Source: Chitinophagaceae bacterium
Lineage (GTDB): Bacteria; Bacteroidota; Bacteroidia; Chitinophagales; Chitinophagaceae
Assembly: GCA_023251335.1 (NCBI GenBank)
Contig: JAHEZA010000018.1
Location: 1 to 13,216, forward strand
Direction: 5' to 3'
DNA: 13,216 nucleotides
The notes under the pieces: model-generated
What the model saw: the letters and a program-made list of their open reading frames with translations, nothing else
Told to the model about the DNA's origin: nothing
The model's database searches: none
Made by a program: the position numbers and the translations under genes
In this document: positions 152 to 13,216 of the stretch, one piece after another
Numbering within the stretch: the first letter of the stretch is position 1
How the letters are laid out: each line of letters begins with the position of its first letter

Positions 152-188
152 AATTGGTATGCTTGTTTGGTTTTGATTCAATTTTAAA

Positions 189-217
189 ACCGGCAGGCTG
201 TTTAAAGGCCCGCCGGT
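189..217 (-). terminator. Hairpin between nosZ and the downstream lipoprotein gene
   Basis: ACCGGC (189-194) pairs perfectly with GCCGGT (212-217). After one A.C mismatch the stem continues with GGCT (196-199) against GGCC (207-210), including one G.T pair. Read in the nosZ direction the stem is followed by TTTTAAAATT, which is a poor T-run. It could be a weak terminator or a stabilising 3' element that lowers expression of the next gene relative to nosZ. Confidence 0.4.
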
Positions 218-223
218 AAATTT

Positions 224-2227
224 TTATTGCGCTTTAGCGCTATCCGGTGCTACGGTAGGCTCTGATTTTTTACCCATGCTAAATGATAAAGGCACATTGG
301 ACTCTTTAGGCGATATCCTGATATAGCCTTGCATTTCCTGGTGCAGCGCACTGCAAAAGTCTGTACAATAAAATGGATAGATCATTGATTCTGTCGGCAG
401 CCATTTGAGTGTTTGTGTTTCGCCGGGCATTACCAGCAATTCAGCATTATTTGCTCCTTTGATTGCAAAACCATGAGGCACATCCCAATCTTGTTCAAGA
501 TTAGTAAGATGAAAATAAACTTCATCGCCTACTTTAACACCTTCAATATTGTCAGGATTCAGGTGAGAGCGGATCATCGTCATATATACGTCCACGCGGT
601 TACCTGTACGAACTACTTTAGCATTTTTTTCGCCGAGCGTTACAAAAGAATTTTTGTTTTTGGCGATATCAAATATTTTCACTGAATTCTTAGCAACGAT
701 ATCTGCGGAAATTGCCTGCGCATAGTGCGGCTCGCCGATGCTGGGATAATCAGCCAACAACTTCATTTTCTCGCCACTAATATCAAACAATTGAGCACTT
801 TGAGATAATTCAGGCCCGGTAGGCAAATACCTGTCCTTGGTGATTTTATTATAGGCAATCAAATACTTTCCATAAGGTTTTTTTGAATCGCCACCAGGAA
901 TCATCAGATGTCCTGGTGAATAGTAGGTAGCATGCCTGTCCACTACTTTCAGATCTTTGATATTCCATTTTACTACCTCTGATGATATAAACATAGTCGT
1001 ATAGCCATTCCCTTTTCCATCAAACTCTGTGTGTAAAGGGCCTAATCCCGGCTTCTTTACTTCACCATAAAGAGCAGATTCATATTTGATAACAGGAAGC
1101 CCATCATAATCACCGTCAAAAGCTTTATCAGCAATGGCTTTTTGTAATTTGGTAAATGAGTATACAGGTATTAAAGCCGCGAGCTTTCCACTGCCAACTA
1201 TATATTCGCCGGTAGGATCCACATCACACCCGTGTGGTGATTTTGGACACGGTATCATATAAACGATGTCGGGAAAATCTTTGGCATCCAGTACCAGGGT
1301 TTGTGTTTCCATGGTAGAAGTAGCCTGGTGCGTACTGTCATCGTAAACGTTATGGGCATACTTTACAGTTTGTTTTTGACCTTTGCCTTGTTTAATATAT
1401 TCTTCTGCTTTCTTCCAATTAACGGCCATGATAAAATCTTTATCACGTTGGGAAGCATTTACTTCGAGCAATGTATGTGCCTGCTCAGAATTGTAGCAAC
1501 TGAAGAAGAACCATCCATGGCTTGGGCCTTTACCTGCATGACTCAAATCAAAATCAATTCCAGGAAGCAACAACTGAAACGCTAACTTCATATTTCCACT
1601 TTTGGGATCTACACTTATAAAACTTACGGTGCCTTTAAAATTCTTCTTGTAAGTATCAATCGGCACATCCTGGTTTTGATTATCCATAGGGACGCTAAAT
1701 CTGGTGCCTGCCACTACATACTCTGTATTTTCTGTAATGAATGGAGATGAGTGATTACCTGCACTATTGGGTATTTCAAGAATCTCTGCAGTGCGGAAAG
1801 TTGTGAGGTCAATGCGTGCTATCCGTGGTGTATTATTGCCGTTGGCAAATATCCACCGTCCATCTACCTCGCCATTTGTTTGTGATAAGTCCAGATGGTG
1901 CTGATCGTCCCAGGGAATCATACCGTGAGAAGTGTTAAGCATTGGTTTTGTATTTTCACTGAATCCCCAGCCACTCTCAGGATCGGTTGAAAATACCGGG
2001 ATTACGCGTAGCAACCTGCCTGATGGAATTCCGTACACAGTTACCTGGCCGCTAAAGCCGCCGGAAACAAAGTTGTACAGTTCATCATACTTGCCTGGTG
2101 GTACATACACTCTTGATGCTGCATCGCCTTGTGTGGCGCTTCCTGCATCTTTTGGTTTACACCCGGTAATGCTAAACAGAAGCGTAGCTGCTATAATTGC
2201 AATCGCCGGGAAGAGAATTTTTTTCAT
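224..2227 (-). CDS. nosZ: Nitrous oxide reductase NosZ, clade II, lipoprotein-type
   Basis: Reduces N2O to N2 outside the cytoplasmic membrane, with electrons from a c-type cytochrome. The 667-aa product starts with a Sec lipoprotein signal (lipobox SITGC, Cys23) instead of the twin-arginine leader of clade I enzymes. The beta-propeller region carries seven histidines in the right contexts for the CuZ cluster: His110 and His111 (DDQHHLDLS), His159 (GNHSS), His332 (PHGCDVDP), His399 (GPLHTEFDG), His440 (SPGHLM) and His501 (EPHYAQ). The C-terminal cupredoxin domain (about 540-640) carries CuA ligands: His585 (DVPHGF) and C621-x3-C625-x3-H629-x2-M632. All ligands are intact, so an active enzyme is expected. 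The gene follows a cytochrome c gene (160-bp gap) and precedes a lipoprotein gene. No TGA-N6-TCA box or convincing -7 box lies directly upstream, so it probably depends on read-through from the cytochrome promoter. Confidence 0.97.
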   Translation of the reverse strand: MKKILFPAIAIIAATLLFSITGCKPKDAGSATQGDAASRVYVPPGKYDELYNFVSGGFSGQVTVYGIPSGRLLRVIPVFSTDPESGWGFSENTKPMLNTSHGMIPWDDQHHLDLSQTNGEVDGRWIFANGNNTPRIARIDLTTFRTAEILEIPNSAGNHSSPFITENTEYVVAGTRFSVPMDNQNQDVPIDTYKKNFKGTVSFISVDPKSGNMKLAFQLLLPGIDFDLSHAGKGPSHGWFFFSCYNSEQAHTLLEVNASQRDKDFIMAVNWKKAEEYIKQGKGQKQTVKYAHNVYDDSTHQATSTMETQTLVLDAKDFPDIVYMIPCPKSPHGCDVDPTGEYIVGSGKLAALIPVYSFTKLQKAIADKAFDGDYDGLPVIKYESALYGEVKKPGLGPLHTEFDGKGNGYTTMFISSEVVKWNIKDLKVVDRHATYYSPGHLMIPGGDSKKPYGKYLIAYNKITKDRYLPTGPELSQSAQLFDISGEKMKLLADYPSIGEPHYAQAISADIVAKNSVKIFDIAKNKNSFVTLGEKNAKVVRTGNRVDVYMTMIRSHLNPDNIEGVKVGDEVYFHLTNLEQDWDVPHGFAIKGANNAELLVMPGETQTLKWLPTESMIYPFYCTDFCSALHQEMQGYIRISPKESNVPLSFSMGKKSEPTVAPDSAKAQ

Positions 2228-2330
2228 AAAATGGTTTTGTTAATGAATGAAGATTTGGTTTGTTATGAGCAAAGTATTACCGCCTAAGAAAAAGTGGATT
2301 TTTTTAGTTATTTCAAATCAGGAAAAAGCG

Positions 2331-2364
2331 AAAAAAACCGGGTATAAAGAACCCTATACCCGGT
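2331..2364 (-). terminator. Rho-independent terminator-like hairpin between cytochrome c gene and nosZ
   Basis: ACCGGGTATA (2337-2346) and TATACCCGGT (2355-2364) form a perfect 10-bp stem with an 8-nt loop. On the minus strand the stem runs straight into seven T residues (complement of 2331-2337). This is a textbook intrinsic terminator for the cytochrome gene, whose stop codon is 23 bp upstream. Because nosZ follows in the same direction and lacks an obvious promoter, it may act as a partial terminator or a processing/stability element. Confidence 0.8.
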
Positions 2365-2387
2365 GGTATAATTGAAACAATGAAAAC

Positions 2388-2891
2388 TTATTTTACGCCG
2401 TCATTTTTGCGCATAAATTCAAGTATGTCCCTCGCATCATCATCGCTCAAATTTTGGTTGGGCATCCGCACCATACAAATTTCAAGCATCGCCTGAGCTT
2501 TTGGATCTTTATCAATCATTTCATCTGTGTTGGTCATGAAGTTCATGATCCACGCGGGTTTGTGGCGGGAAGTAACACCATGCCATCCTGGCCCTACAAG
2601 CCTTTCGTCAGTAAGTTTGTGGCAGGAAGAACATTTCAGATCATAAATTTTTTCGCCTTCCTCTGCCTCTTTTGCGTCCAGTTTATCACTCAGTTGCACA
2701 TCATGGAATTTACCTTCACCCCGATTGGGATCGTAAGAAGGATTTTCTGATGCGGTACCAGCGTCAGAACCTGTTGCTTCTTCAGTAGATTCAGGAGCAG
2801 ATTCACTCTTTTTATCAGAGCCGCCACCGCAGGAAATAACAAATAATGCCATTGAAAAAATCAAGGAAAAGGAAATGATCATTTTTTTCAT
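2388..2891 (-). CDS. Monohaem class I cytochrome c lipoprotein, likely electron donor to NosZ
   Basis: A 167-aa lipoprotein. The signal ends in the lipobox VISC (Cys21), followed by GGGS and an acidic Ser/Glu/Ala linker (about 22-55) that would let the haem domain reach away from the membrane. The C-terminal domain (about 70-165) has one haem motif, CSSCH at 87-91, and a likely distal Met143 in the sequence VRMPNQ. Such cytochromes adjoin clade II nosZ in Bacteroidota, and position and orientation fit a role in passing electrons to the CuA site of the neighbouring reductase; that role is inferred. It is the first gene of the minus-strand unit. Its promoter region carries two FNR-like palindromes and a near-consensus -7 box, giving an expected leader of about 24 nt. 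A strong hairpin follows the stop codon. Confidence 0.9.
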   Translation of the reverse strand: MKKMIISFSLIFSMALFVISCGGGSDKKSESAPESTEEATGSDAGTASENPSYDPNRGEGKFHDVQLSDKLDAKEAEEGEKIYDLKCSSCHKLTDERLVGPGWHGVTSRHKPAWIMNFMTNTDEMIDKDPKAQAMLEICMVRMPNQNLSDDDARDILEFMRKNDGVK

Positions 2892-2919
2892 AACTGGTAA
2901 ATGTTTAAATTTTACTTTG

Positions 2920-2995
2920 CAATATTACAGTAGAGACAAACTTCGTTTTATGAGCCTTGTCATAAAAAACAAAAATATTAAATGATTTGGATCAT
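2920..2995 (-). promoter_or_regulatory. FNR/DNR-like tandem operator and promoter of the nos cytochrome c gene
   Basis: The proximal box is TGAGccttGTCA at 2951-2962, embedded in a longer inverted repeat, TTTTATGA (2946-2953) against TCATAAAA (2960-2967). The distal box is TGATttggATCA at 2983-2994. The centres (2956.5 and 2988.5) are 32 bp apart, about three helical turns. On the minus strand TAATATTG (2927-2920) matches five of the six defined bases of the Bacteroidota -7 box TAnnTTTG and begins 29.5 bp from the proximal centre. That puts the palindrome near -42, a class II activator position. The distal box could also serve the divergent gene at 3101. Confidence 0.72.
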
Positions 2996-3055
2996 GTTGA
3001 AGCCTTTTTTATTCTTATTTATATAAAAGTAAGAAAATTTATCCTAAAGATGATT

Positions 3056-3063
3056 TAGTTTTG
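3056..3063 (+). promoter_or_regulatory. -7 promoter box TAGTTTTG of the 3101 membrane protein gene
   Basis: TAGTTTTG is a full match to the Bacteroidota -7 consensus TAnnTTTG. It lies 37 bp before the ATG at 3101, predicting a leader of roughly 33 nt. The palindrome centred at 2988.5 would lie near -80, a position compatible with a class I activator, so expression may be co-regulated with the nos genes. Confidence 0.5.
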
Positions 3064-3100
3064 GTTCGATGAGAATGTCTAAAATTAATTCGCTTGTTTT

Positions 3101-4369
3101 ATGAATGCCCGGGCTTTTAATACCAAACGGTGGATTGAAATTGCTTTAATCAATTTTTGCGTCGTAGCGCTGGCAGGTGTTACCATGCGATATAAAATTA
3201 ATTTTGCGCTTCCTGCGATCAATCAGAAGTATTTAATGCATGGGCATTCCAATTTTGCTTTTGTAGGTTGGGTAGCTATGGCGCTTATGATTTTGATGGT
3301 ACGCTACCTGGTACGCAATGATCTGCAAACTAACTATAAAAAATATCACTATATTTTAATTGCAGAAGTGATTGCTTCTTACGCGATGCTTGTATCTTTT
3401 ATTATCCAGGGATACGACTTTTGGTCTATTACGTTTTCAGTCATTACTATACTCATATCTTACTTTTATATTTTTTTTTACTGGCGGGATCTTAATAAGG
3501 TACACGATGCCGGCTTTTCACGCAGTTGGCTGAAGGCTGCTTTACTGCTTTGGGCATTTTCTTCTTTAGGCGCTTTTATGCTCGCTTATTTGATGGCAAA
3601 TCATATCATGATTCAAGACCTTTATTTTGCTTCGGTTTATTTTTTCATGCATTTCCAATATAATGGTTGGTTTTTATTTGCCTGCTTTGGAATATTTTTT
3701 TCCTACATGCATAGGCTGGGGCTTTTCAGGATGGCTTTTTTGAGTAAACGTTTATTTATGATCATGACTATCACGGTAGTGCCCACCTATTTTCTGTCCA
3801 TTTTATGGTTAAGACTGCCACTGTCGCTTCATTGGATTGCTAACATTTCGGGGATCTTACAGCTTTTGGTCTTGCTTTATTTTTTCAAAGTTATTTCTGT
3901 AGTTCAAAAAAATACAAGTATAAAATTCAGTTGGTCCACAAAGTGGCTGTGGCGGCTTGCGTCTATAGCATTTATTTTAAAAATAATTTTGCAAATGCTT
4001 TCCACACTACCTTTCCTTAGCCACTTTGCCTTTGGCTTCAGACCTGTAGTGATCGGGTATTTGCATCTCTCGTTTGTGGGTATTATCAGCCTTTTTATAT
4101 TAGGTTATATCAACGAATTTATTCACCGGTTCCGGGGAAATGTCAGTGGCATTGGGGCTATCATTTTTGTTACCGGTTTCATTGTTCAGGAAATCGTTTT
4201 AATGTTGCAGGGACTTGAAGCGATGGATGTAGAACCGGTAAAAGGTGCAAATATTATTTTATTTTATTGTGCTATCTTAATGGCAGCAGGATTGATATGG
4301 ATTACCAGTGGTATTATCAGGACACAAGAATATGAATTAGAAGGAAAAGTAGAAATATCAAAAAACTAA
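3101..4369 (+). CDS. 12-helix membrane protein, haem-copper-oxidase-subunit-I-like (function unassigned)
   Basis: A 422-aa polytopic protein with about twelve hydrophobic helices (roughly 12-28, 46-69, 84-103, 107-127, 145-166, 174-200, 217-238, 246-266, 284-300, 316-338, 350-371, 384-404), the helix count of haem-copper oxidase subunit I. Histidines sit in glycine/aromatic contexts: MHGHSNFAFVGW (His47, His49) in helix 2, FFMHFQYNGWF (His184) in helix 6 and GYLHLSFVG (His322) in helix 10. This recalls ligand helices of the oxidase/NorB superfamily and, less closely, NnrS. It lacks the adjacent histidine pair of helix 7 that binds CuB and the HxH of helix 10, so it is unlikely to be a classical oxidase. 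It is divergent from the nos unit and shares an intergenic region holding FNR-like boxes. Possible roles are a haem-containing quinol- or NO-related membrane protein; this is inference only. Confidence 0.7.
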   Translation: MNARAFNTKRWIEIALINFCVVALAGVTMRYKINFALPAINQKYLMHGHSNFAFVGWVAMALMILMVRYLVRNDLQTNYKKYHYILIAEVIASYAMLVSFIIQGYDFWSITFSVITILISYFYIFFYWRDLNKVHDAGFSRSWLKAALLLWAFSSLGAFMLAYLMANHIMIQDLYFASVYFFMHFQYNGWFLFACFGIFFSYMHRLGLFRMAFLSKRLFMIMTITVVPTYFLSILWLRLPLSLHWIANISGILQLLVLLYFFKVISVVQKNTSIKFSWSTKWLWRLASIAFILKIILQMLSTLPFLSHFAFGFRPVVIGYLHLSFVGIISLFILGYINEFIHRFRGNVSGIGAIIFVTGFIVQEIVLMLQGLEAMDVEPVKGANIILFYCAILMAAGLIWITSGIIRTQEYELEGKVEISKN

Positions 4370-4403
4370 ATTAGGAATCGCGGATATTTATTCTTTTACT
4401 GTT

Positions 4404-4430
4404 ATTGCACTTGACTGGCAATTTTATTTC
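4404..4430 (+). terminator. Weak terminator-like hairpin between convergent genes
   Basis: ATTGC (4404-4408) pairs with GCAAT (4418-4422) around a 9-nt loop, followed by TTTATTTC. The stem is only 5 bp. It sits in the short gap between two converging genes, where a terminator is expected, but it is weak. Confidence 0.25.
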
Positions 4431-4918
4431 GGCCTTGCTAAACTATCTGCCGGATACTTAGCTTCCATTTCTTTCTGTGCATTGACAGCCCAGTTAACTA
4501 AAGTTGTTTTCTGTTCAGCACTCAATATTGCATCGCGGTGTACTATCGTATATGAAAACAGCGGCATTTCATCTTCTTTGATTTGTTCCTGAATTTCTTT
4601 AAATTTTTTATAACGTCTATAAGCAGGGTAGGTAGCGAAGGTTGAAAAATTAATTTCCTTTTTGCCTTCGATAATGTGATCATTAAGAAACCAGGTCACC
4701 GGTTGTATTTTTTCGTACCAGGGATACTGGGTGGTGTTACTGTGGCAATCATAGCAAGACACTTTCAGGATTTGCTGTACATTGTCAGGCACCTGTTGAA
4801 CAGCGGTAATTTGATTGGCGGTGATTTCTTCACCTGCATTTTTTGGAGGCCTAATAAATTGAATTATAATAAATGCAATCAATAAAACAATTAATAAGAT
4901 TTTTATTACTTTTTTCAT
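4424..4918 (-). CDS. Membrane-anchored cytochrome c, haem-binding domain family (Haem_bd type)
   Basis: A 164-aa protein with an N-terminal hydrophobic segment (about 5-21) after two lysines. No lipobox cysteine is present, so it is probably an uncleaved anchor with the rest periplasmic. The haem motif CYDCH is at 55-59, followed by SNTTQYPWY, a WFLNDH segment (76-81), an EMPL motif (117-120) that may supply a methionine ligand, and a C-terminal LVNWA segment. This order is that of the Bacteroidota haem-binding domain family (Pfam Haem_bd, from memory), whose function is not defined. It may shuttle electrons at the membrane. It converges on the 12-helix gene with a 54-bp gap and diverges from the stress-protein gene. 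Its own upstream operator pair has 22-bp spacing, but the expected leader, about 99 nt, is longer than for the other promoters. Confidence 0.85.
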   Translation of the reverse strand: MKKVIKILLIVLLIAFIIIQFIRPPKNAGEEITANQITAVQQVPDNVQQILKVSCYDCHSNTTQYPWYEKIQPVTWFLNDHIIEGKKEINFSTFATYPAYRRYKKFKEIQEQIKEDEMPLFSYTIVHRDAILSAEQKTTLVNWAVNAQKEMEAKYPADSLARPK

Positions 4919-5021
4919 GAGATTAGTTTTATTGAGAATATAGTTTAGTTTTTACGCTAATAGTTCCTTATCAATTTGCTCCTAAAAATGAACCCAAATC
5001 TGATCGTAAATTTTTAAATAT

Positions 5022-5086
5022 CAAAATTTATATTTTTTGCATTGTGTATTGATGATCGTTGTCATTATGATAAATGATTGTTATCA
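5022..5086 (-). promoter_or_regulatory. FNR-like tandem operator and promoter of the haem-binding cytochrome gene
   Basis: Two palindromes, TGATcgttGTCA (5053-5064, centre 5058.5) and TGATtgttATCA (5075-5086, centre 5080.5), are 22 bp apart. On the minus strand AAATTTTG (5029-5022) lies 29.5 bp from the proximal centre and matches five of six defined bases of TAnnTTTG. The geometry equals that of the other operator/promoter pairs in the window. Confidence 0.65.
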
Positions 5087-5146
5087 GATAAAAAGCGATG
5101 GTTATTTTATACTCTTAAGTCACTTTATACGTTACTCATAAATAAA

Positions 5147-5211
5147 TGATTAAAGTCATGAAAATTACTAACGAGTATCAAACTTTGCTTTTTAGGCTGA
5201 AATTAACTTTG
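5147..5211 (+). promoter_or_regulatory. FNR-like tandem operator and promoter of the universal stress protein gene
   Basis: The distal box is TGATtaaaGTCA (5147-5158, centre 5152.5). The proximal box is TAACgagtATCA (5169-5180, centre 5174.5), with one departure (A for G) from the TGA-N6-TCA core. Centre spacing is 22 bp. TAACTTTG at 5204-5211 is a full match to the -7 consensus TAnnTTTG and begins 29.5 bp after the proximal centre, predicting a leader of about 26 nt before the ATG at 5242. Confidence 0.72.
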
Positions 5212-5241
5212 GTCATTTAAAATCATTAAATCAAAAAAAAT

Positions 5242-6066
5242 ATGAAAAATATTCTTGTACCAATTGACTTTTCAACAGCGTCGCATATTGCCGGCAAATA
5301 TGCAGCTTCGCTCGCAGAAATTTTTAATGCTAACGTAACTTTTTTAAATGTTGTTCCAGATGCATTGATCATAGATCAGGAAGCTGATGAAGAACGAATT
5401 ATCCTGTACCGGGAACAACTGGCAGGAAATAAAGAGTTGATGACAAAAGAAATTGAGACGCTCTCAAAAAATCATACAGCGTCATTGCGGGGGCACGTTT
5501 ATGAAGGTTCCCCTTCTAATGTTATCCTGGAAATTGCCACTGAAGACAAACCCGATATTATCATCATGGGAATGAAAGGGAAAGGACAAAGTAATTCTGT
5601 CTTTGGTAGCACGGTTACGACTATTGTTCGAAAAGCATCTATTCCCGTTTTGATAATTCCCGAAAATGCTGTTTACGTGTCTATCGACACCATCACCCTG
5701 GCGACAGATTTTGATGCAGATACAGAAAGTGAGCGTTATGCGTTGTTGATGGAAATCGCAAAAAGATATAATTCATTTATCCAGGTACTTAACGTCCAAA
5801 AGAAAGGGAAGGAAATGAGTCAGAGTGAGTATATTGGTAAAATGAGTACACATTATTCTTTAGACGTTTTAAAACACAGCTTTAACACTGTTGAGGATAC
5901 AAGCGTGATTGAAGGTATCAGTCAATTAATGGAAGAAAAGCCTTGTGATATGTTGGCAATGACGGCTCATAAGCACTCTTTTATTGAAAGATTATTCGGT
6001 AAGGTTTATACTAAAGAGATGAGTTATGAAACAAAGGTTCCGCTGCTGGTATTGCAAAATAAATAG
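5242..6066 (+). CDS. Tandem-domain universal stress protein (UspA family)
   Basis: A 274-aa soluble protein with two Usp domains. Domain 1 (about 1-140) starts KNILVPIDFS, with Asp9 in the nucleotide-binding strand. It carries the loop GMKGKGQSNSVFGST (110-124), a G-x2-G-x8-G-S/T version of the ATP-binding motif that is one residue shorter than the usual G-x2-G-x9-G. Domain 2 (about 146-273) starts IDTITLATDFD but has no glycine loop: the matching stretch is TAHKHSFIERLFGK (241-254). It therefore probably does not bind ATP the same way. Usp proteins support survival under energy or oxygen limitation. This gene has a perfect -7 box and an FNR-like operator pair, so induction at low oxygen is likely. 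It converges on the baeRF-like gene with a 93-bp gap in which I see no strong terminator. Confidence 0.93.
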   Translation: MKNILVPIDFSTASHIAGKYAASLAEIFNANVTFLNVVPDALIIDQEADEERIILYREQLAGNKELMTKEIETLSKNHTASLRGHVYEGSPSNVILEIATEDKPDIIIMGMKGKGQSNSVFGSTVTTIVRKASIPVLIIPENAVYVSIDTITLATDFDADTESERYALLMEIAKRYNSFIQVLNVQKKGKEMSQSEYIGKMSTHYSLDVLKHSFNTVEDTSVIEGISQLMEEKPCDMLAMTAHKHSFIERLFGKVYTKEMSYETKVPLLVLQNK

Positions 6067-6159
6067 AGAAAAATCTTTAGGTAGTTGTTGCGCCTGCTGC
6101 ACTTCACCTTAATTACTCTATTGCAGGGATCACGTCAGAAAACCTATGGCTAAAGATAT

Positions 6160-7278
6160 TTAGAATAGGACGGCATTATTTTTTCGTGGATTTATATTAC
6201 CGGTTACCAGCCGGCGATTCAAAGGATTCATTAATTCTTCCTCTATTAGTGCAATACCGCCGTGATCTTTTAAGAGGCCAGGGTTTACAATTTCAATTTG
6301 GTTACCTCTTGATAGAAATCTTTCCAGATGTCTTATCCAAATTCCTGGCGACTTAAAAAGGGTATTCATTTTTAGAGATTTTTTCAATTGTTTGTTATAA
6401 TATTTGTCAATCAGAAGAATGCCGTCCTTACTGCTTTCCAAAGCTTTTAGTACAGCTGTAATATTGCTGATAAGGCGATTGGCCTTTTCTGCCAGCTCTA
6501 TTTTTCCGGCTAAAAATTCGTAATGCCAATATTTCCATTCACTATCAATCTCTGACGCCAATAATCTCAATTTATCTTCTGCGTCGCCTGGAAATAATGT
6601 GTTTGCTTTTCTAAACATTATTTCCCGAAAGGCTGACATATTGCATATTATATTACCCTGTGCGGTACTTCCTGTTACGAAGACGGGCTTTTTGGTTTTA
6701 AAGTTCAATAGTTTTAAAACATTTAATGTTCGTTGACGCTGGTCCATTTTTGTTGGTTTTCTTACCAGCAGTTGTTGCCCCGGAGAATTTGAAATAAACG
6801 CGCTCCCGGTCGTTTCGTATTCTTTGTGAAGTTTTCCATTGTAGTATTCAAAAAGCATGGATTTTTTATCTGCCGAGTACAAAAGAAAAAATTCAGGTTG
6901 ATTATTTACGTGGTGTAAAAGATCCAGAAGCGAAATATTTTTATTAAAATAAATTAAAGGTTTTGTAAAGACATTTAAATAGGTAATTGTTTCGTCGTCG
7001 GGCCCAATTACTATTGCGACAGTTTTTCTGTGTGTGTTGTAATTCAATCGACCGAAAGTTTTATCCAATCTTGCAAGAATAGTTTTGCCAAATACGCTAT
7101 TGTATTTTTCTTTCAGTTTTGTTTCCACCGCCCGGTGAATGTAGTTAAGAGTGGCTAGAATAAACTTTTTATCGTGCATAGATGGCTGAAACGGGAAAGT
7201 GATGCCGAGGGTGGTAAGTGGTAGTTGGGGTCTACTTGCTTTTCTAATAGCTGTTTTTGGGGTGGTTGCTACGAGCAC
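6160..7278 (-). CDS. baeRF-like protein (bacterial relative of archaeo-eukaryotic release factor fold)
   Basis: A 372-aa soluble protein without signal or membrane segments. The layout fits baeRF-type proteins: an N-terminal alpha/beta region (about 35-155) with strands such as KTVAIVIGPD, the FTKPLIYF segment and FFLLYSADKKSMLFEYY; a middle region (about 195-300) with KPVFVTGS and SKDGILLIDK; and a C-terminal GNQIEIVNPGLLKDHGGIALI-like end (325-345), reminiscent of the last eRF1-like domain. A PGQQ tetrad at 166-169 sits where a GGQ-like loop could be, but I cannot align it with certainty. The start is GTG (7278-7276): an in-frame stop lies upstream and the first internal ATG is Met34 (7179). 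The predicted transcription start near 7317 favours the GTG. These families are thought to act on ribosomes; the role here is inferred. The family call is from pattern memory. Confidence 0.55.
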   Translation of the reverse strand: MLVATTPKTAIRKASRPQLPLTTLGITFPFQPSMHDKKFILATLNYIHRAVETKLKEKYNSVFGKTILARLDKTFGRLNYNTHRKTVAIVIGPDDETITYLNVFTKPLIYFNKNISLLDLLHHVNNQPEFFLLYSADKKSMLFEYYNGKLHKEYETTGSAFISNSPGQQLLVRKPTKMDQRQRTLNVLKLLNFKTKKPVFVTGSTAQGNIICNMSAFREIMFRKANTLFPGDAEDKLRLLASEIDSEWKYWHYEFLAGKIELAEKANRLISNITAVLKALESSKDGILLIDKYYNKQLKKSLKMNTLFKSPGIWIRHLERFLSRGNQIEIVNPGLLKDHGGIALIEEELMNPLNRRLVTGNINPRKNNAVLF

Positions 7279-7322
7279 GATGTGTTTAATTAAGAGTTAC
7301 TAATAAATGCTAGTTATGCTTG

Positions 7323-7387
7323 TAAAATTATAGACCCGGATTTTTCCGAAGACTGATTTTAGTCATTCCCTTTCCTGATTGTTATCA
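7323..7387 (-). promoter_or_regulatory. FNR-like tandem operator and promoter of the baeRF-like gene
   Basis: Two palindromes, TGATtttaGTCA (7354-7365, centre 7359.5) and TGATtgttATCA (7376-7387, centre 7381.5), are 22 bp apart. On the minus strand TAATTTTA (7330-7323) lies 29.5 bp from the proximal centre and matches five of six defined bases of TAnnTTTG. The expected leader to the GTG at 7278 is about 39 nt. The distal box is identical to the distal box of the haem-binding cytochrome promoter. Confidence 0.7.
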
Positions 7388-7676
7388 TTATCCAGTTATT
7401 TTCAGAAAGATAAAGTGCTTGGGAATTCAGTATCCTGTCTGTTTTTGTATTTTGTTTTATGGTCCGGGCAGGAAGAATTATTGCCGACATATTGATCATT
7501 GTTTCATCTTAATTCCTTTGATAGTGGCTGTAGGAATCGCCGTAACTAATTAATAATTTTAAAAGCAACAAAATAACTTTAATCCAGATGATAAATTCAT
7601 TTTCTAAAATAGAATTTCATATTAGATATACCATATTCAGCAAATAATTGATCATCTTTGGTAATTACAAAATACC
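7388..7676. other. Intergenic stretch with little recognisable content
   Basis: This is the remainder of a 398-bp gap between divergent genes. I see no convincing ORF, RNA gene or strong hairpin. CATCTTTG at 7653-7660 matches five of the six defined bases of the TAnnTTTG consensus and is a possible -7 box for the gene at 7677, but no TGA-N6-TCA palindrome stands at the usual distance from it. Confidence 0.5.
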
Positions 7677-8195
7677 ATGGGGAATAGCTTTTTCGCATAC
7701 ATTCAAAAGTTAGAACTACTGGCTTTTTTTTCCGGTTATTCTTTACTGTGTGCGATAATTTTAATCTTTGCCGGAAATAATGAATCAGGGAATAATTTAA
7801 GAAAAAGGACCGTTTTCATTTTACCTTTATCATACGCATTAGTAGGTACTTTATACCTCGGACTTCAACTAAAGAACTTTTATCTTAGTTATTCTTCTGG
7901 GAATATTAGACCCGCTATTCATCTTTCTTATCTGATGGTCTGGGGGCTTCTTTCAATACTGTTTTGGATACCTTCATTAAGGAAAAGACCATCTCTAAGT
8001 TTACTCCATAACCTGGTATTCTTTTTCATTTTAGTGAAAGATATGATTTTGCAAATTAGCTCATCTGTGGACGGGAATATTTTAAAGAACGACATGAGAA
8101 TGTATACTGTCAGTTTTCTTTTAAATCTTAGCGCTTTTATCCTGATCGTATTATTATCTTTCGTTGTCTCGCGAAGAAGGATTAGATACAAATAA
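7677..8195 (+). CDS. Five-helix integral membrane protein of unknown function
   Basis: A 172-aa very hydrophobic protein with about five predicted membrane segments (13-32, 45-63, 82-99, 108-128, 143-164), basic loops such as LRKR (41-44) and LRKRPS (101-106), and a strongly basic C-terminus (SRRRIRYK). Basic loops suggest those ends are cytoplasmic. I recognise no cofactor motif: the few histidines (82, 111) are not in haem-ligand contexts. It stands alone between two operator-bearing promoters, with 212 bp before the YceI operon. Base use matches the neighbours and hydrophobicity is consistent along the frame, so I take it as a real gene. No function can be assigned. Confidence 0.65.
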   Translation: MGNSFFAYIQKLELLAFFSGYSLLCAIILIFAGNNESGNNLRKRTVFILPLSYALVGTLYLGLQLKNFYLSYSSGNIRPAIHLSYLMVWGLLSILFWIPSLRKRPSLSLLHNLVFFFILVKDMILQISSSVDGNILKNDMRMYTVSFLLNLSAFILIVLLSFVVSRRRIRYK

Positions 8196-8307
8196 ATGTT
8201 CAGTATTTTTTCGCCCTTATAGAAAGTAAACGTTTTTCTTCGTTTACTGATACCCGTAAGCCAACTATTTCATTTTGACATCGTCACGTGATTTTCTTGT
8301 TAGGATA

Positions 8308-8373
8308 TGATAACAGTCATGATCATCCCTGACTGCCGTCATCTAATTATAGTTCTATCCACTACTACTTTTG
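8308..8373 (+). promoter_or_regulatory. FNR-like tandem operator and promoter of the YceI/cytochrome/barrel operon
   Basis: Two palindromes, TGATaacaGTCA (8308-8319, centre 8313.5) and TGACtgccGTCA (8330-8341, centre 8335.5), are 22 bp apart; the second has perfectly symmetrical TGAC/GTCA arms. TACTTTTG at 8366-8373 is a full match to TAnnTTTG and starts 30.5 bp after the proximal centre. The predicted leader before the ATG at 8408 is about 30 nt. Confidence 0.72.
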
Positions 8374-8407
8374 TTTTCACAATTAATTTACATTTTAAAA
8401 ACATTTT

Positions 8408-9208
8408 ATGAAACTGCTCAATAACAAAACACTAGGGTTAATTGCGATAATCTTAATCAGTGGCTACGGATATATTGCTAGCTGCACTCATAAAGATCTG
8501 ATTATACCAGAGCCAGCAACAGGAACTATCATTATTACTCGTGGTGACGGTATTTTTTTACCAGGAACCGAAACAATAGGAGATACCTCCCAATGGAAAA
8601 TGGATAAGTCTCATTCGAGTGTATTATGGTCCAGTGCTTACCTTGAAACAGGAGGCTTGCTAACAGGTCGGTTTAATAAATTCGGGTTGAATAGCCTTTC
8701 TTCATCTGCCAGGCAATTATATGTTAGCACTGGCCAGCCTGTTTTAGATACCTCCTGGGCTTTTTATGAAAGCGATCCATCTAAAAGTTATTTCAGCGGT
8801 TATGTTCAAATGAATACTTCCAATACTGGCGAACCCGGAAGAGACGGCGGTTGCTATTTGGGCTATGTAGGTGCGCCGAAAATTATTTCTGGTACGCAAA
8901 ATCTCATGGATTCCAACGTTGTTGTGATCAGAACCACTAAAATAGAATTTGATACGAAGAGTTCGGGATATATTGTTACAATGGTAATGAGTTGGAAGGG
9001 CCTGCTTTCAGCACTACACGATACTACTGTTAATGGGACTCTTTCTTACGTGAAAAGGTCTACAGTTGGTGAAGGTACCGCTGCAGCTTATGGTCAGTTT
9101 GGTTTACAGTTGAATTTTCAATTCAATTGCAGATCCTTCGGTATCACCACAGACGAAATTTCTGATATTGTCAATGTGCAATGCAACATGAATTTCAATA
9201 ATAAATAA
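8408..9208 (+). CDS. YceI-like domain lipoprotein
   Basis: A 266-aa lipoprotein: hydrophobic signal then lipobox IASC (Cys26). From about residue 63 the sequence reads WKMDKSHSSVLWSS...GGLLTGRFNKFGL, the opening of the YceI fold (Trp, the DxxHSSV strand and the G-x-F-x-x-F strand). YceI proteins are periplasmic lipocalin-like barrels that bind long isoprenoid or amphiphilic ligands. It is the first gene of a three-gene unit, with 20 bp to the cytochrome gene. The mature start, CTHKDLIIPEP, resembles that of the next lipoprotein, CYKDVILPPEV. A carrier of a quinone-like ligand, or a structural part of an outer-membrane complex, would fit, but neither is shown. The family call rests on the N-terminal half; the C-terminal half is less typical and carries extra cysteines (149, 241, 259). 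Confidence 0.78.
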   Translation: MKLLNNKTLGLIAIILISGYGYIASCTHKDLIIPEPATGTIIITRGDGIFLPGTETIGDTSQWKMDKSHSSVLWSSAYLETGGLLTGRFNKFGLNSLSSSARQLYVSTGQPVLDTSWAFYESDPSKSYFSGYVQMNTSNTGEPGRDGGCYLGYVGAPKIISGTQNLMDSNVVVIRTTKIEFDTKSSGYIVTMVMSWKGLLSALHDTTVNGTLSYVKRSTVGEGTAAAYGQFGLQLNFQFNCRSFGITTDEISDIVNVQCNMNFNNK

Positions 9209-9228
9209 TCACTAAAACTCTAATTATT

Positions 9229-9603
9229 ATGAAACGGTCATTAATATACGTCGGGCTGATATTTTTTATGGTTTTTGGCCTGGTCAGTTGCTACAAAGAT
9301 GTGATTCTTCCTCCTGAGGTAAGTACTAAGCCGCCTCAATATGTTAGCTTTAGCAGTGATCTCCAACCTATTTTTACTGCTAATTGTGCCACCTCAGGCT
9401 GCCACGTGAAGGGAGCTCAGGTACCATACTTAACTCCGGATGTTTCTTACCAACAACTTTTGGGTGGGTTTGTCAATACCGTTAAACCGGAACAAAGCCA
9501 ATTGTACATAATGATCAACGGCAATATGCAAGTGCATATTCCTAATCCTGCTGACCGGCAAAAGATATATGACTGGATCAGAAATGGCGCTCCAAACAAT
9601 TAA
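9229..9603 (+). CDS. Small c-type cytochrome lipoprotein with CX4CH haem motif
   Basis: A 124-aa lipoprotein with lipobox LVSC (Cys21). The domain opens FSSDLQPIFTANC, the usual start of Bacteroidota cytochrome-like domains. The haem motif is CATSGCH at 53-59, which is C-x4-C-H rather than C-x2-C-H; such spacing is known for some c-type haems. Met95 or Met100 (INGNMQVHIP) may be the distal ligand, and the domain ends with the typical IYDWIRNGAPNN helix. It is placed between the YceI lipoprotein (20-bp gap) and the beta-barrel gene (21-bp gap), with no internal promoter seen, so the three are one operon. A role in moving electrons at or across the outer membrane is inferred from the barrel partner. 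Confidence 0.85.
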   Translation: MKRSLIYVGLIFFMVFGLVSCYKDVILPPEVSTKPPQYVSFSSDLQPIFTANCATSGCHVKGAQVPYLTPDVSYQQLLGGFVNTVKPEQSQLYIMINGNMQVHIPNPADRQKIYDWIRNGAPNN

Positions 9604-9624
9604 GTGATCTAAAAATTTAATCAA

Positions 9625-10611
9625 ATGAAAATAATTATTCGTAAATCAAAAAAGCAACTGATATGTTGCTCATATTTAATGGTTGCATTGTTGCTGACAA
9701 CTACAGTATCTGTTGCACAAAATGACAGCGCTGTAACTACAACACAAGCTGAAGCGTCAGCTCCCACAAAACACAAACCGGTAAAGAATACATTTCGAAG
9801 TGTATGGATTATCGATGATCAAACTGTTATGGTTCCGATAAAAGGTACTCTTGAAGCAGATATACAACACAGGTTTGGAACGGTTGAAAATGGTATTGAG
9901 GATTTATATGGAATCTTTGCTTCAGCTAATATAAGACTGGGGTTTGCCTATACACCTATTAATAATTTATCCATTGGTTTTGGAGCAACGAGAAACGCTG
10001 GAAATATGCTTTTGGACGGAAGCGCTAAATATGCAATTATAAAGCAAACAAAAGAACAATATCCCGTCAGTGTTACCTACTATGGTAACATAGGATACGA
10101 AACGAAAGCTGACCCTAATCATTATCTTTACACTTACCAAACGGAACGTTGGACTTTTTTCAACCAATTAATAATTGCCAGGAAGTTTTCAGATAAATTT
10201 TCCGTTCAGGTTGCTGCCAGCATATCTCATCAGAATTCGGTGCCCGGTTATTACGCTCAAAAGGATACAACCGTATTTGTATATGAAAAGCAAAAGCATG
10301 ATCTATTTGCTGCATCAGTAAGTGCACGATATGTATTATCTGAAGTAACTGCAATTATCGTTGATTATGATCAACCTCTTACACAATTCCCTACTGACAA
10401 CCCTCATCCCAATTTGGCATTTGGCTTTGAGTTTAATACCAGTGGCCATACTTTCCAGTTGTTTGCGGGTAATTATTCATTATTAAATCCTCAGCACAAT
10501 AGCCTTTATAATACAAACAACCCTATTGGATTCACACAAACCGGTGGTACAAAAGTCAAGGGCGGTCAATTTTTAATTGGTTTTAATATCACGCGATTGT
10601 GGAATTATTAA
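9625..10611 (+). CDS. DUF5777-like outer-membrane beta-barrel protein
   Basis: A 328-aa protein with a cleavable Sec signal (hydrophobic about 11-30, probable cut near SVAQ-ND) and a Thr/Ala-rich linker. The remainder consists of alternating amphipathic strands rich in Tyr, Phe, Gly and Asn. NTFRSVWIIDDQTV (about 54-67), DIQHRFGTVENGIEDLYGIF and the segment reading LSIGFGATRN match, as I recall, the Bacteroidota DUF5777 barrel family. It ends in an aromatic residue (RLWNY), as expected for an outer-membrane barrel. As last gene of the YceI/cytochrome operon it may form the outer-membrane part of a porin-cytochrome module. No terminator of good quality follows. Confidence 0.85.
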   Translation: MKIIIRKSKKQLICCSYLMVALLLTTTVSVAQNDSAVTTTQAEASAPTKHKPVKNTFRSVWIIDDQTVMVPIKGTLEADIQHRFGTVENGIEDLYGIFASANIRLGFAYTPINNLSIGFGATRNAGNMLLDGSAKYAIIKQTKEQYPVSVTYYGNIGYETKADPNHYLYTYQTERWTFFNQLIIARKFSDKFSVQVAASISHQNSVPGYYAQKDTTVFVYEKQKHDLFAASVSARYVLSEVTAIIVDYDQPLTQFPTDNPHPNLAFGFEFNTSGHTFQLFAGNYSLLNPQHNSLYNTNNPIGFTQTGGTKVKGGQFLIGFNITRLWNY

Positions 10612-10773
10612 TTAATGTAAAAGAATTTCTATTGAAGGCCAACATGAATTAAGATGCAAACCTTGTTATCTTTTTTTGTAAAAAATATGGTTTTTTTGAT
10701 AATTAATGGAAGTGAAGAAAATAAATAATTGTCGCAATTTTTTTGCACCGGTTTATATAAAAAAAATTCACGC

Positions 10774-11283
10774 ATGATCTCTTTCAGAATAGCAATATGC
10801 AGCACGATTATTTTTTTTCTTTTCAACTGCTCGTGTTCTGAGGTCTCTGAAAAAAATAGTCCACAGCAAGAAAAGGCCCTGCAAAAAAAGCATTTGATTA
10901 TCAGGAAACCCGGCTCCAGCTTTAACGATACAATTATTATTTCTGCTAATTCGGCTGTGTTCTATCATCCGGATTCGTTACAAATGAATAAAATTAAAGC
11001 AGTGAATGAAAAGAATATTTTTGATATGCTCACACACAACTGCCATTACCAGATTGAAAATGCGCGCATGGTGATTAAGAAATACTGGCCTCAAATAAAG
11101 ATTATAGAGACTTCTGCAGTAAGGTATCTTCTTTTTGAGAAGAGAAATAAAAGTGAAGTGTGTATTGATTTGAATGATAAGAACGATATATGTGGTTTAT
11201 TTCTGTTTGATGGGGAAAAATCTCCTGTGCTAGTTGATATGCCGAATATTGATACGCAACTCAGGTTCTATTTTTCCAAATAA
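10774..11283 (+). CDS. Small lipoprotein of unknown function
   Basis: I prefer the ATG at 10774, which gives 169 aa and a normal lipoprotein signal: ISFR, a hydrophobic core, then FNCSC with Cys19 or Cys21 as the lipidated residue. The frame is open further upstream to an ATG at 10729, but that would put 15 polar residues before the signal. The mature part is basic and soluble (RKPGSSFNDTIIISANSAVF, then VRYLLFEKRNKSEVCIDLND) and could be a small beta-sandwich. No family is recognised. It has no FNR-like box upstream and stands 162 bp after the barrel gene, so it may be independent. The reading frame is AT-rich like its surroundings. Confidence 0.6.
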   Translation: MISFRIAICSTIIFFLFNCSCSEVSEKNSPQQEKALQKKHLIIRKPGSSFNDTIIISANSAVFYHPDSLQMNKIKAVNEKNIFDMLTHNCHYQIENARMVIKKYWPQIKIIETSAVRYLLFEKRNKSEVCIDLNDKNDICGLFLFDGEKSPVLVDMPNIDTQLRFYFSK

Positions 11284-11297
11284 GTCTACTGAGGAAA

Positions 11298-11362
11298 TGA
11301 CTTGAATCACAGGCTGTAATGATTATGATCATTTAAAAGATAATATCGCAGATATATCTTGC
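11298..11362 (+). promoter_or_regulatory. FNR-like tandem operator and promoter of the cytochrome c/FeS operon
   Basis: Two palindromes, TGACttgaATCA (11298-11309, centre 11303.5) and TGATtatgATCA (11320-11331, centre 11325.5), are 22 bp apart. The second extends to AATGAT/ATCATT (11318-11333). TATCTTGC at 11355-11362 begins 29.5 bp after the proximal centre but matches only four of the six defined bases of TAnnTTTG, so the -7 assignment rests mainly on position. The leader to the ATG at 11446 would be about 79 nt. Confidence 0.62.
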
Positions 11363-11445
11363 ATTACGAATTTGATATTGCCCATTTATGAATTTTAAAC
11401 CTCTACTCAAAATCAAATTTTAATAATAACCTAAAACTAAAAAAG

Positions 11446-11853
11446 ATGAAATCAATAGTAGCAATTGCAGTCTTTGTAATCGGATTAACAGCAGCTAGCT
11501 TTACGATCAAAGTTCAGCCAACACAAAAAGCATGGCCGGTACCCGCAGCTGATAAAGCAAAAAAAAATCCGGTGGCCAGCAGTGCTGAATCCATTAAAGC
11601 AGGGAAAGAACTATGGAGTACTTTTTGTAAATCATGTCACGGTGCTAAAGGATTGGGTGATGGCACCAAAGCGGCCCAATTAAAAACTGAGCCGGGTGAT
11701 TTTTCATTAGCTTCTTTTCAATCACAGACTGACGGTGAAATGTTTTACCGCTTATCAGAAGGCCGCGACGATATGCCGGCTTCTAAAAAGAAAGTTCCTG
11801 ATGAAGAAGACAGGTGGAACCTGGTAAACTTTATGAGAACTCTAAAAAAATAA
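11446..11853 (+). CDS. Periplasmic monohaem cytochrome c
   Basis: A 135-aa protein with a Sec signal (hydrophobic 4-19), no lipobox cysteine, then a Lys/Pro/Ala-rich linker. The class I cytochrome domain (about 48-134) has haem motif CKSCH at 61-65 followed by GAKGLGDG, and distal Met110 in DDMPASKK, with the C-terminal helix WNLVNFMRTL. It is the first gene of an operon with a Tat-like small protein and a ferredoxin-type subunit. It probably exchanges electrons with that oxidoreductase, either as donor to a reductase or as acceptor from an oxidase-type complex; the sequence does not decide. Confidence 0.9.
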   Translation: MKSIVAIAVFVIGLTAASFTIKVQPTQKAWPVPAADKAKKNPVASSAESIKAGKELWSTFCKSCHGAKGLGDGTKAAQLKTEPGDFSLASFQSQTDGEMFYRLSEGRDDMPASKKKVPDEEDRWNLVNFMRTLKK

Positions 11854-11980
11854 TTCCGGCCGCGTGATGCAGCTCTTTGTTTTACGTATCGTTTCAAATT
11901 ATATTTTAGGGCATTTGCATAATTGTTTTATTAAAACGATAAAGATCGGGTACATTATTCTTCAATTCAATTTTAAGATC

Positions 11981-12220
11981 ATGCAAGAACCTCAAAAATT
12001 CCAATCAAGAAAAAAATTCCTTCTGTGGAGCGCTGCTACGCTTTCTTCAGTATCGGTTTTGAAATTCTTTAAAATATCTAAAAAGGAAAATACTGAAACG
12101 GTAAAAATGCTTACGCAGGATGGAAAATTGGTAGAGGTAAATATTACTGCTATCCCATCCAAAAAGAAGAAAATTACCAATAAAGAATTACAGAACTGGA
12201 TTAAAAAAGACAACGTCTGA
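11981..12220 (+). CDS. 79-aa Tat-like small protein related to the N-terminus of the following FeS subunit
   Basis: I chose the ATG at 11981. The frame is open to an ATG at 11864, but the added residues look like untranslated leader and push the signal inward. From residue 8 the protein reads SQ/SRKKFLLWSAATLSS-like: SRKKFL is a twin-basic (RK) version of the Tat motif, followed by a hydrophobic stretch. The soluble rest, TVKMLTQDGKLVEVN and KITNKELQNWIKKD, aligns with residues about 41-77 of the next gene product (KVKLLSVDGDVIEVD ... VSNDEARKGM). It has no cysteine and no cofactor motif. It lies 18 bp before the FeS gene. It may be a small accessory or structural subunit, or an assembly factor, of the same complex; no function is established. 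Confidence 0.7.
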   Translation: MQEPQKFQSRKKFLLWSAATLSSVSVLKFFKISKKENTETVKMLTQDGKLVEVNITAIPSKKKKITNKELQNWIKKDNV

Positions 12221-12238
12221 TAAATAAACTAGTGTACC

Positions 12239-13156
12239 ATGGATCAAAATAAATCTCGTAGAGAATTTCTGGCTGCCGGTGTCCTGACCACAATGGCGGT
12301 TGCCTGCAGTAGTAATCATTCCCCCTTTCCGGCCGATGATATTGAAGCATCCGGAGAAAAAGTAAAACTACTTTCGGTAGACGGTGATGTTATCGAAGTG
12401 GACAAGGCGTACCTGAAACCATTGCCACACATGCCTTCAGTAAGCAATGATGAAGCAAGAAAAGGAATGCCGGGAAAGAAGTTTGTAATGGTAATAGATC
12501 TTTCCCGTTGCAAAAATGTGAAAGCCTGCCAGGTAGCGTGTAACCATGCACATCACGTACAGGATGCACAGAATTGGATAAAGGTTTATCCTATGCAGGA
12601 TGCTCAACATACAGCACCCTACTGGCAACCCACTACCTGCATGCATTGCGATGAACCGCCTTGTGTAAAAGTGTGCCCGGTTGATGCAACGTTTAAAAGG
12701 CAGGACGGAATTGTATTGATTGATAGCGAAAGGTGTATCGGATGCCGGTTTTGTATGGCGGCATGTCCCTACTCAACCCGGGTATTTAACTGGGGAGAGC
12801 CTGATCTTCCCGTAGATATTGCCGACAAGCCTTATAATCCTGAAACAAGTCTCCCACAAAAAAAGGGAACCGTTGGCAAATGTGACTTCTGCCCCGATAT
12901 GACAAGAATGGGCATGTTGCCACATTGCGTTTCAGCCTGCCCTAATGGTGTTTATTTTTTTGGAGATATGAATGAAGATTCAGTTACTAACGGATCAGAA
13001 ACTTTTCGTTTCAGTGACCTTATCAGAGAAAAAGCGGGATACCGTCTTATGGAAGACCTGGGAACAAAACCAAGTGTTTATTATCTCCCTCCGGTAAACA
13101 GGAATTTTAAATTTGAAGAAGGCCTGGATACAGAAGATTCTACTCAAAAATCTTAA
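12239..13156 (+). CDS. Four-cluster ferredoxin subunit of a molybdopterin oxidoreductase-type complex (NrfC/PsrB/DmsB family)
   Basis: A 305-aa exported iron-sulfur protein. It has a Tat motif SRREFL (6-11) with a lipobox-like VAC (Cys23), so it is likely a Tat-exported lipoprotein. Cysteine groups: C91-x5-C97-x3-C101; C134-x2-C137-x4-C142-x3-C146; C166-x2-C169-x2-C172-x3-C176; C215-x2-C218-x11-C230-x3-C234. This is the electron-transfer subunit of complexes with a molybdopterin catalytic subunit and an NrfD-type membrane subunit. The first group lacks one cysteine: Val94 stands where C-x2-C-x2-C-x3-C needs Cys, so one cluster may be [3Fe-4S] or use another ligand. Residues 24-80 are an extra N-terminal segment shared with the preceding small protein. 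The next gene starts 3 bp downstream. The substrate is unknown. Confidence 0.92.
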   Translation: MDQNKSRREFLAAGVLTTMAVACSSNHSPFPADDIEASGEKVKLLSVDGDVIEVDKAYLKPLPHMPSVSNDEARKGMPGKKFVMVIDLSRCKNVKACQVACNHAHHVQDAQNWIKVYPMQDAQHTAPYWQPTTCMHCDEPPCVKVCPVDATFKRQDGIVLIDSERCIGCRFCMAACPYSTRVFNWGEPDLPVDIADKPYNPETSLPQKKGTVGKCDFCPDMTRMGMLPHCVSACPNGVYFFGDMNEDSVTNGSETFRFSDLIREKAGYRLMEDLGTKPSVYYLPPVNRNFKFEEGLDTEDSTQKS

Positions 13157-13159
13157 TAA

Positions 13160-13216
13160 ATGAAAAATTTGCAAAATTTATCTCCGGATGAAATCACTGC
13201 TGACCTGTTGCCCCAA
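13160..13216 (+). CDS. Start of the next operon gene (partial, runs off right edge)
   Basis: An ATG at 13160, 3 bp after the FeS subunit stop, opens a frame of 19 codons to the window end (MKNLQNLSPDEITADLLPQ). The tight spacing says it is translated with the FeS gene. The hydrophilic start does not look like a signal peptide. By family context it could be an NrfD-type membrane subunit or another subunit of the same complex, but the visible residues do not decide. Confidence 0.6.
   Translation, partial: MKNLQNLSPDEITADLLPQ

Follow-up and report, generated by a model that had tools for sequence, protein, structure and literature searches.

In Proteobacteria, the class II promoters controlled by FNR, ANR and FixK carry the dyad TTGAT-N4-ATCAA centred at −41.5. 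In the FixL-FixJ-FixK cascade of rhizobia, a PAS kinase, a phospho-receiver and a FixK/FNR-like activator serve microaerobic respiration, and the DevR/DosR regulon of mycobacteria places universal stress protein (Usp), Hsp20 and respiratory genes under two-component control from paired boxes. Here we describe paired FNR-like boxes at six promoters in a 13,216-nucleotide stretch of DNA (the window) from a Chitinophagaceae bacterium (contig JAHEZA010000018.1, here C136, positions 1 to 13,216), which belongs to a draft genome of 3.4 Mb in 671 contigs that is 86% complete. The pairs probably serve as tandem operators in a regulon for low-oxygen and nitrogen-oxide respiration under an FNR/FixK-type activator, and in this genome they are likely to be read by a fusion of a receiver domain to a Crp/Fnr protein (REC-cNMP-HTH_Crp, for which the label REC-FNR was coined here).

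Paired boxes and −7 boxes in the window

The element, called the composite below, comprises a distal box, a proximal box at 22 bp from it, and a TAnnTTTG box at an offset of 23 bases past the proximal box. The boxes are FNR-like, with the consensus TGAY-N4-RTCA in the distal and proximal positions alike, and the TGAT-N4-ATCA-like dyad that marks FNR/FixK-type operators is found in both boxes, in this genome as well as in its relatives. The boxes of the six promoters are the following.

2983..2994, minus strand: nos promoter, distal box, TGATCCAAATCA, 32 bp from the proximal box
2951..2962, minus strand: nos promoter, proximal box, TGACAAGGCTCA
2920..2927, minus strand: nos promoter, −7-like box, TAATATTG, 23 bases past the proximal box, one mismatch
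5075..5086, minus strand: haem-binding-protein promoter, distal box, TGATAACAATCA
5053..5064, minus strand: haem-binding-protein promoter (gene ending at 4918), proximal box, TGACAACGATCA, 22 bp
5022..5029, minus strand: haem-binding-protein promoter, −7-like box, AAATTTTG, offset 23, one mismatch
5147..5158, plus strand: Usp promoter, distal box, TGATTAAAGTCA
5169..5180, plus strand: Usp promoter, proximal box, TAACGAGTATCA, one mismatch
5204..5211, plus strand: Usp promoter (gene at 5242), −7 box, TAACTTTG, offset 23, perfect
7376..7387, minus strand: promoter of the gene for a 372-amino-acid (aa) protein, distal box, TGATAACAATCA
7354..7365, minus strand: 372-aa gene promoter (gene starting at 7278), proximal box, TGACTAAAATCA
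7323..7330, minus strand: 372-aa gene promoter, −7-like box, TAATTTTA, offset 23, one mismatch
8308..8319, plus strand: YceI-like/DUF5777 operon promoter, distal box, TGATAACAGTCA
8330..8341, plus strand: YceI-like/DUF5777 operon promoter, proximal box, TGACTGCCGTCA
8366..8373, plus strand: YceI-like/DUF5777 operon promoter (gene at 8408), −7 box, TACTTTTG, offset 24, perfect
11298..11309, plus strand: cytochrome c / iron-sulphur (Fe-S) operon promoter, distal box, TGACTTGAATCA
11320..11331, plus strand: cytochrome c / Fe-S operon promoter, proximal box, TGATTATGATCA
11355..11362, plus strand: cytochrome c / Fe-S operon promoter (gene at 11446), −7-like box, TATCTTGC, offset 23, two mismatches to TAnnTTTG

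All 12 boxes of the six pairs were located where the original prediction had placed them, with five pairs exactly 22 bp apart and the nos pair 32 bp apart. Read along the coding strand of the respective gene, the −7-like octamer follows the proximal centre at 29.5 bp, or at 30.5 bp in the case of the box at 8330, as described. Their description as TGA-N6-TCA boxes is exact for 11 of the 12 and fails for the box at 5169, which reads TAA-N6-TCA. A perfect TAnnTTTG is present in only two of the six −7 boxes. In an excerpt of PMC9723704, the TAnnTTTG box of the flavobacterium F. psychrophilum lies at −12 to −5, and a TAnnTTGY variant given there fits TATCTTGC. Together with the offset of 23 bases, this position would put the box centres at about −41.5 (proximal) and −63.5 (distal).

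Spacing, offset and recurrence

Single boxes mean little, because the 13-kb window holds 18 that match TGA-N6-TCA exactly and 109 once one mismatch is allowed (the exact ones included). When two boxes were required at 22 bp, with at most two mismatches, the genome gave 23 places and the reversed pattern 4; with its spacing of 32 bp, the nos pair is not among the 23. Ten of these places have 0–1 mismatch, all on contigs C136, C194, C232 and C144, and 13, on the same four contigs, are promoter-like. A −7-like box with at most one mismatch stands at 22–24 bases in 12 of the 13, the remaining one being TATCTTGC, and 12 of the 13 lie outside any open frame of at least 120 codons; the place at C194:5541 is the exception, but its frame, of 128 codons and antisense to the beginning of the Hsp20 gene, was taken as spurious. 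Among the other ten places, eight fall within frames of that minimum length, and the same lax test, applied to either strand, finds a −7-like box at two. Eight members of the composite set lie in this genome outside the window. When the spacing was left free (0–30 bases between boxes), 6 of 17 places in the genome fell at 22 bp and no other spacing occurred more than once, with none in the reversed control.

The same free-spacing search placed 43 of 50 matches at 22 bp in six relatives (reversed control 2 forward, 1 reverse) and 35 of 57 in seven further genomes with a REC-FNR; the reversed control of this second search gave 7 forward and 4 reverse places, which is few though not zero. Since 22 bp is also preferred in five genomes without a REC-FNR (11 of 19 places), the tandem layout is not in general caused by the receiver domain. 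In G104, G241 and G277 another spacing, 23 bp, forms a class of its own, in some cases with an inverted repeat between the boxes; this is possibly another operator. With the offset to TAnnTTTG left free over 31 values in eleven genomes, 18 of 23 matches lay at exactly 23 bases. With two mismatches allowed, 45 of 59 genomes (this one and its relatives) carry the full composite (reversed control 0 of 59); in a sample of 296 genomes across the phylum, with a limit of one mismatch, 35 do (reversed control 0 of 296). The original prediction had held that the constant pair spacing and −7 distance go beyond chance; this is borne out by the reversed-pattern, free-spacing and free-offset controls and by the conservation in relatives, and the comparison of promoter with coding DNA, set beforehand as a test, was passed.

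An exact composite scan over one genome per GTDB species, run without a control, gave at least 119 stretches; of the 80 loci listed from it, 75 carry names placed in Bacteroidota in the wide sense (one of them Ignavibacteria). Two Bifidobacterium breve metagenome-assembled genomes (MAGs) and one Thalassovita MAG also hold an exact composite (L237, L262 and L266), and may be misnamed or mixed.

Sec-type nosZ scored above the cut-off in 48 of the 119 relatives searched. The nosZ upstream regions of 30 relatives gave a best composite (at most three mismatches) with a spacing of 22 bp in seven relatives and 32 bp in three; these three are all of the same genus as the window and share its layout, which rules out the 32-bp nos spacing as a misreading. 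Sixty stretches were picked by hand from the pattern matches for comparison. In the relatives, 71 sites with at most one mismatch were tallied, a set in which divergent pairs are counted twice and the positions specified by the pattern are biased. Their 31 mismatches fall 7 in the distal and 24 in the proximal box (binomial p = 0.003), and a T follows the proximal box in 79% of the sites, at a position that the pattern does not specify. When up to two mismatches were admitted, 5 of 83 sites were inside a frame of at least 150 codons. At L133, L171, L188, L189 and L191, one box pair is common to divergent genes, which can share it because the pair is symmetric.

Genes behind the composites

The composites of the window precede cytochrome c with nosZ, a haem-binding protein, a Usp, the 372-aa protein, which has no assigned family, a cytochrome c / Fe-S operon, and an operon that has a YceI-like protein first and also holds DUF5777. 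The genes concerned are the following.

224..2227, minus strand: nosZ, Sec-dependent nitrous-oxide reductase (TIGR04246, 929 bits against a cut-off of 625)
2388..2891, minus strand: cytochrome c (PF00034), first gene after the nos promoter
4424..4918, minus strand: haem-binding-domain protein (PF14376)
5242..6066, plus strand: Usp (PF00582)
6160..7278, minus strand: 372-aa protein without a Pfam match
8408..9208, plus strand: lipoprotein-like protein, weak YceI match below cut-off
11446..11853, plus strand: cytochrome c, first gene behind the pair at 11298/11320

The YceI-like protein has an 82% identical counterpart behind a composite in G016, and the cytochrome c at 11446..11853 a 58% identical one in G024. 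Outside the window, the composites of this genome stand before genes for PNPOx, Hsp20 and two proteins without a Pfam match, before a PAS kinase gene followed by a REC-FNR gene, and before the crp gene of C144. Those on C232 precede a short PNPOx-like frame, with a radical-SAM gene behind it, and a separate frame without a Pfam match; by eye, the radical-SAM gene appears to be HemN and the separate frame a piece of a Usp. The PNPOx-like and Usp-like frames there (L032:4640-4900 and 5049-5336) look interrupted, through assembly errors or as pseudogenes.

In the relatives, a simple rule assigned a downstream open reading frame to 61 of the 71 sites, and 46 proteins were scanned, 45 of them from this set and one from a site with two mismatches. 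They comprise five COX1 (CcoN-like) proteins, three CcoI-type P-ATPases, two cytochromes c, three Hsp20, two Usp, two YceI and four D-hydroxyacid dehydrogenases, and one each of NrdD, GlutR (glutamyl-tRNA reductase), PNPOx, Crp, Rrf2, PTPS and PPDK; 11 belong to other families and seven have no Pfam match. This is an anaerobic/microaerobic target set of the sort found at FNR/FixK-type class II promoters, with several targets of other kinds.

Two further genes of the window may be mentioned. At 12239-13156, in the operon behind the composite at 11298, lies a four-cluster Fe-S subunit whose best matches (DsrO, TtrB and NrfC-like) are below their cut-offs, and any catalytic partner of it would be past the contig end. 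Adjoining the nos promoter, a gene at 3101-4369 encodes a 422-aa membrane-like protein without a Pfam or NCBIfam match, and no composite was found for it.

Candidate regulator

A Crp-type helix-turn-helix (HTH) domain gave four matches in the genome: two REC-FNRs on C194, a plain Crp on C144 and one weak match. No cysteine-bearing FNR is among these four in the 86%-complete draft, and the REC-FNRs lack an N-terminal cysteine cluster, their N terminus being the receiver domain (PF00072, 98–101 bits). D9, D52 and K104 are invariant in 16 REC-FNRs, in keeping with the phospho-acceptor Asp and the Lys of response regulators. Both REC-FNR genes on C194 are adjoined by genes for HisKA + HATPase_c kinases with PAS domains, which are candidate partners by position. 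Of the sites in this genome C194 holds five, one lying upstream of a gene pair for a kinase and a REC-FNR. Both PAS stretches tried from these kinases have FixL as their closest match among solved chains. An aligned His, the putative haem ligand, is kept in the kinase at C194:3-1277 and not in the stretch tried of the kinase at 8031-10076; it is also present in 10jx, a chain not named FixL.

Proteins of this type are numerous, with at least 8000 at E 1e-40; the 120 listed all have the three domains, and bear database names such as 'response regulator' and 'CRP/FNR family'. Among the 296 genomes of the phylum sample, composite and REC-FNR (E up to 1e-50) occur together in 29, the composite alone in 6, the REC-FNR alone in 14 and neither in 247 (Fisher p = 7e-24), where at most seven candidates per genome were scored for REC-FNR and absences are accordingly soft. 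The corresponding counts are 29/4/14/26 within the class (p = 4e-6) and 3/0/1/13 within one genus (p = 0.006). Among the 59 genomes, two or more composite matches were found in 34 of 39 with a REC-FNR against 4 of 20 without, kinship being ignored. In seven genomes of other families (L177, L180-L185), the composite starts 6–26 bp behind the REC-FNR gene and before a gene for Hsp20 (3) or D-hydroxyacid dehydrogenase (4), in a conserved gene order.

Five of the six composite-only genomes (all but G106) encode a plain Crp/Fnr protein with an N-terminal CxxC, further cysteines and the recognition helix GTATE(S/T)xIR, a helix that it has in common with the REC-FNRs; no REC fusion was found in these five, in terms of an HTH_Crp_2 match in an open frame of more than 255 codons. 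In a quick FastTree tree, REC-FNRs and cysteine-bearing FNRs group together and the C144 type lies apart. Most simply, the operator would go with the recognition helix, and the sensor part would vary. The Crp of C144, of a putative HcpR/DNR-like type, has the helix GTARVVVSR and lies on another branch, which makes it unlikely as the main regulator. Its gene has a composite promoter of its own (L033:9559-10200 and 10209-10273), an arrangement suggesting a cascade like that from ANR to DNR.

Proposed mechanism and alternatives

The original prediction had proposed a dimeric Crp/Fnr-type regulator on two same-face sites, and this is supported by the fixed spacing and −7 offset, the FNR-like targets in other genera, and the co-occurrence with Crp/Fnr proteins of one recognition helix. 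One dimer would occupy the distal box at about −63.5 and a second dimer of the same regulator the proximal box at about −41.5, both on one face of the DNA and two helical turns apart (three at nos), and together they would activate transcription by recruiting RNA polymerase at the Bacteroidota −7 box (−12 to −5). Cooperative filling is suggested by the two same-face sites, by the unselected T after the proximal box and by the better conservation of the distal box, which would anchor binding, the weaker proximal site receiving its dimer in the class II position. The most likely regulator in this genome would be one or both of the C194 REC-FNRs; each has a PAS histidine kinase as its neighbour, which would make phosphorylation the input, and the signal may be oxygen or nitric oxide. 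In other genomes the same operator would be read by a cysteine-bearing FNR that shares this recognition helix and is probably an Fe-S protein. The box pair before the kinase and REC-FNR gene pair would give feedback, and that before the C144 crp gene a cascade.

Several observations count against this interpretation. Three of the six −7 boxes in the window have one mismatch and one (TATCTTGC) has two; 11 of the 57 places in the seven REC-FNR genomes are at 23 bp; and upstream of nosZ in the 30 relatives, spacings other than 22 or 32 bp occur in 8 and the composite is absent in 12. About a quarter of the scanned targets are not obviously anaerobic. No composite with at most one mismatch was found in 14 of the 43 REC-FNR genomes, and the Fisher tests of co-occurrence ignore kinship. 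Finally, an excerpt of PMC8510549 attributes MalR-like carbon sensing to the Crp/Fnr homologues of Flavobacteriales and Saprospiraceae; lack of prior knowledge is named there as a limit for some Crp/Fnr members.

The alternative that fares best accepts the architecture and gives it another reader in this genome, either the C144 Crp or an Fe-S FNR that the draft lacks. In its favour are the incompleteness of the assembly, the occurrence of the operator at the same spacing in the five genomes that have a cysteine-bearing FNR and no REC fusion, and the composite promoter of the C144 crp gene. Against it, none of the four HTH matches is a cysteine-bearing FNR, the C144 protein differs in helix and branch, and composite and REC-FNR vary together within a genus; a reader other than the REC-FNRs seems unlikely. 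It is considerably less probable still that the two boxes are bound by different regulators, or that the distal box is a separate repression site or a site for another Crp-type protein, the pair being an integration point: the boxes are indeed unequally kept, and several Crp/Fnr paralogues often occur in one genome, but the consensus is the same in both boxes, the inner Y and R included, the spacing is nearly fixed, and a single pair serves divergent genes in either direction. A chance or compositional artefact of a common dyad, for which the abundance of single boxes would speak, is ruled out for practical purposes by the reversed-pattern, free-spacing and free-offset controls and the split between promoter-like and coding places.

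Comparison with known systems

Known FNR/FixK biology covers the box, the putative −41.5 position and the target genes. As far as searches of the open-licence PubMed Central literature go, what is new is a tandem layout of fixed spacing joined to the Bacteroidota −7 box, together with the spread of this layout over the phylum and its link to receiver-domain FNR paralogues: no description of tandem −41.5/−63.5 Crp/Fnr operators in Bacteroidota or of REC-Crp fusion proteins was found in that literature, and the assertion that the layout is not a described standard stands to this extent. A broader proposal, whose chances we put slightly below even, is that these promoters form a distinct Bacteroidota low-oxygen class with a two-dimer operator at −41.5/−63.5, in which spacing, offset and helix would be constant, the distal dimer would serve as anchor, and the sensor would be exchanged between an Fe-S cluster and a phospho-receiver; the receiver form would then be a FixL-FixJ-FixK pathway compressed into a kinase and a REC-FNR. 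The composite can be read straight from sequence and predicts a low-oxygen and nitrous-oxide-respiration regulon for many uncultured species. It also makes the geometry of activation on the unusual Bacteroidota −7 promoters testable, and would offer a natural case of an activator whose sensor is swapped as the operator stays fixed.

Of the described systems, the MalR type of Bacteroides (an excerpt of PMC8510549) and the putatively HcpR/DNR-like type of C144 resemble the REC-FNRs as Bacteroidota members of the Crp/Fnr family; the C144 type differs from the REC-FNRs in helix and branch. The FNR/ANR/FixK class II promoters share with the present ones a related dyad, the putative −41.5 position and a target set of cbb3 oxidase, CcoI, haem synthesis, NrdD, Usp and nos; unlike them, the promoters described here have a predicted second dimer site at −63.5 as a rule, an outer base that is not fixed as T, and a Bacteroidota −7 box in place of the −10 box. 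The DevR/DosR regulon is similar in having Usp, Hsp20 and respiratory genes behind paired boxes and in its two-component type of control, but here the output domain is of another family and the box is different. The FixL-FixJ-FixK cascade likewise joins a PAS kinase, a phospho-receiver and a FixK/FNR-like activator in a single pathway; in the present case receiver and activator are one polypeptide, and the kinases are at best candidate haem proteins.

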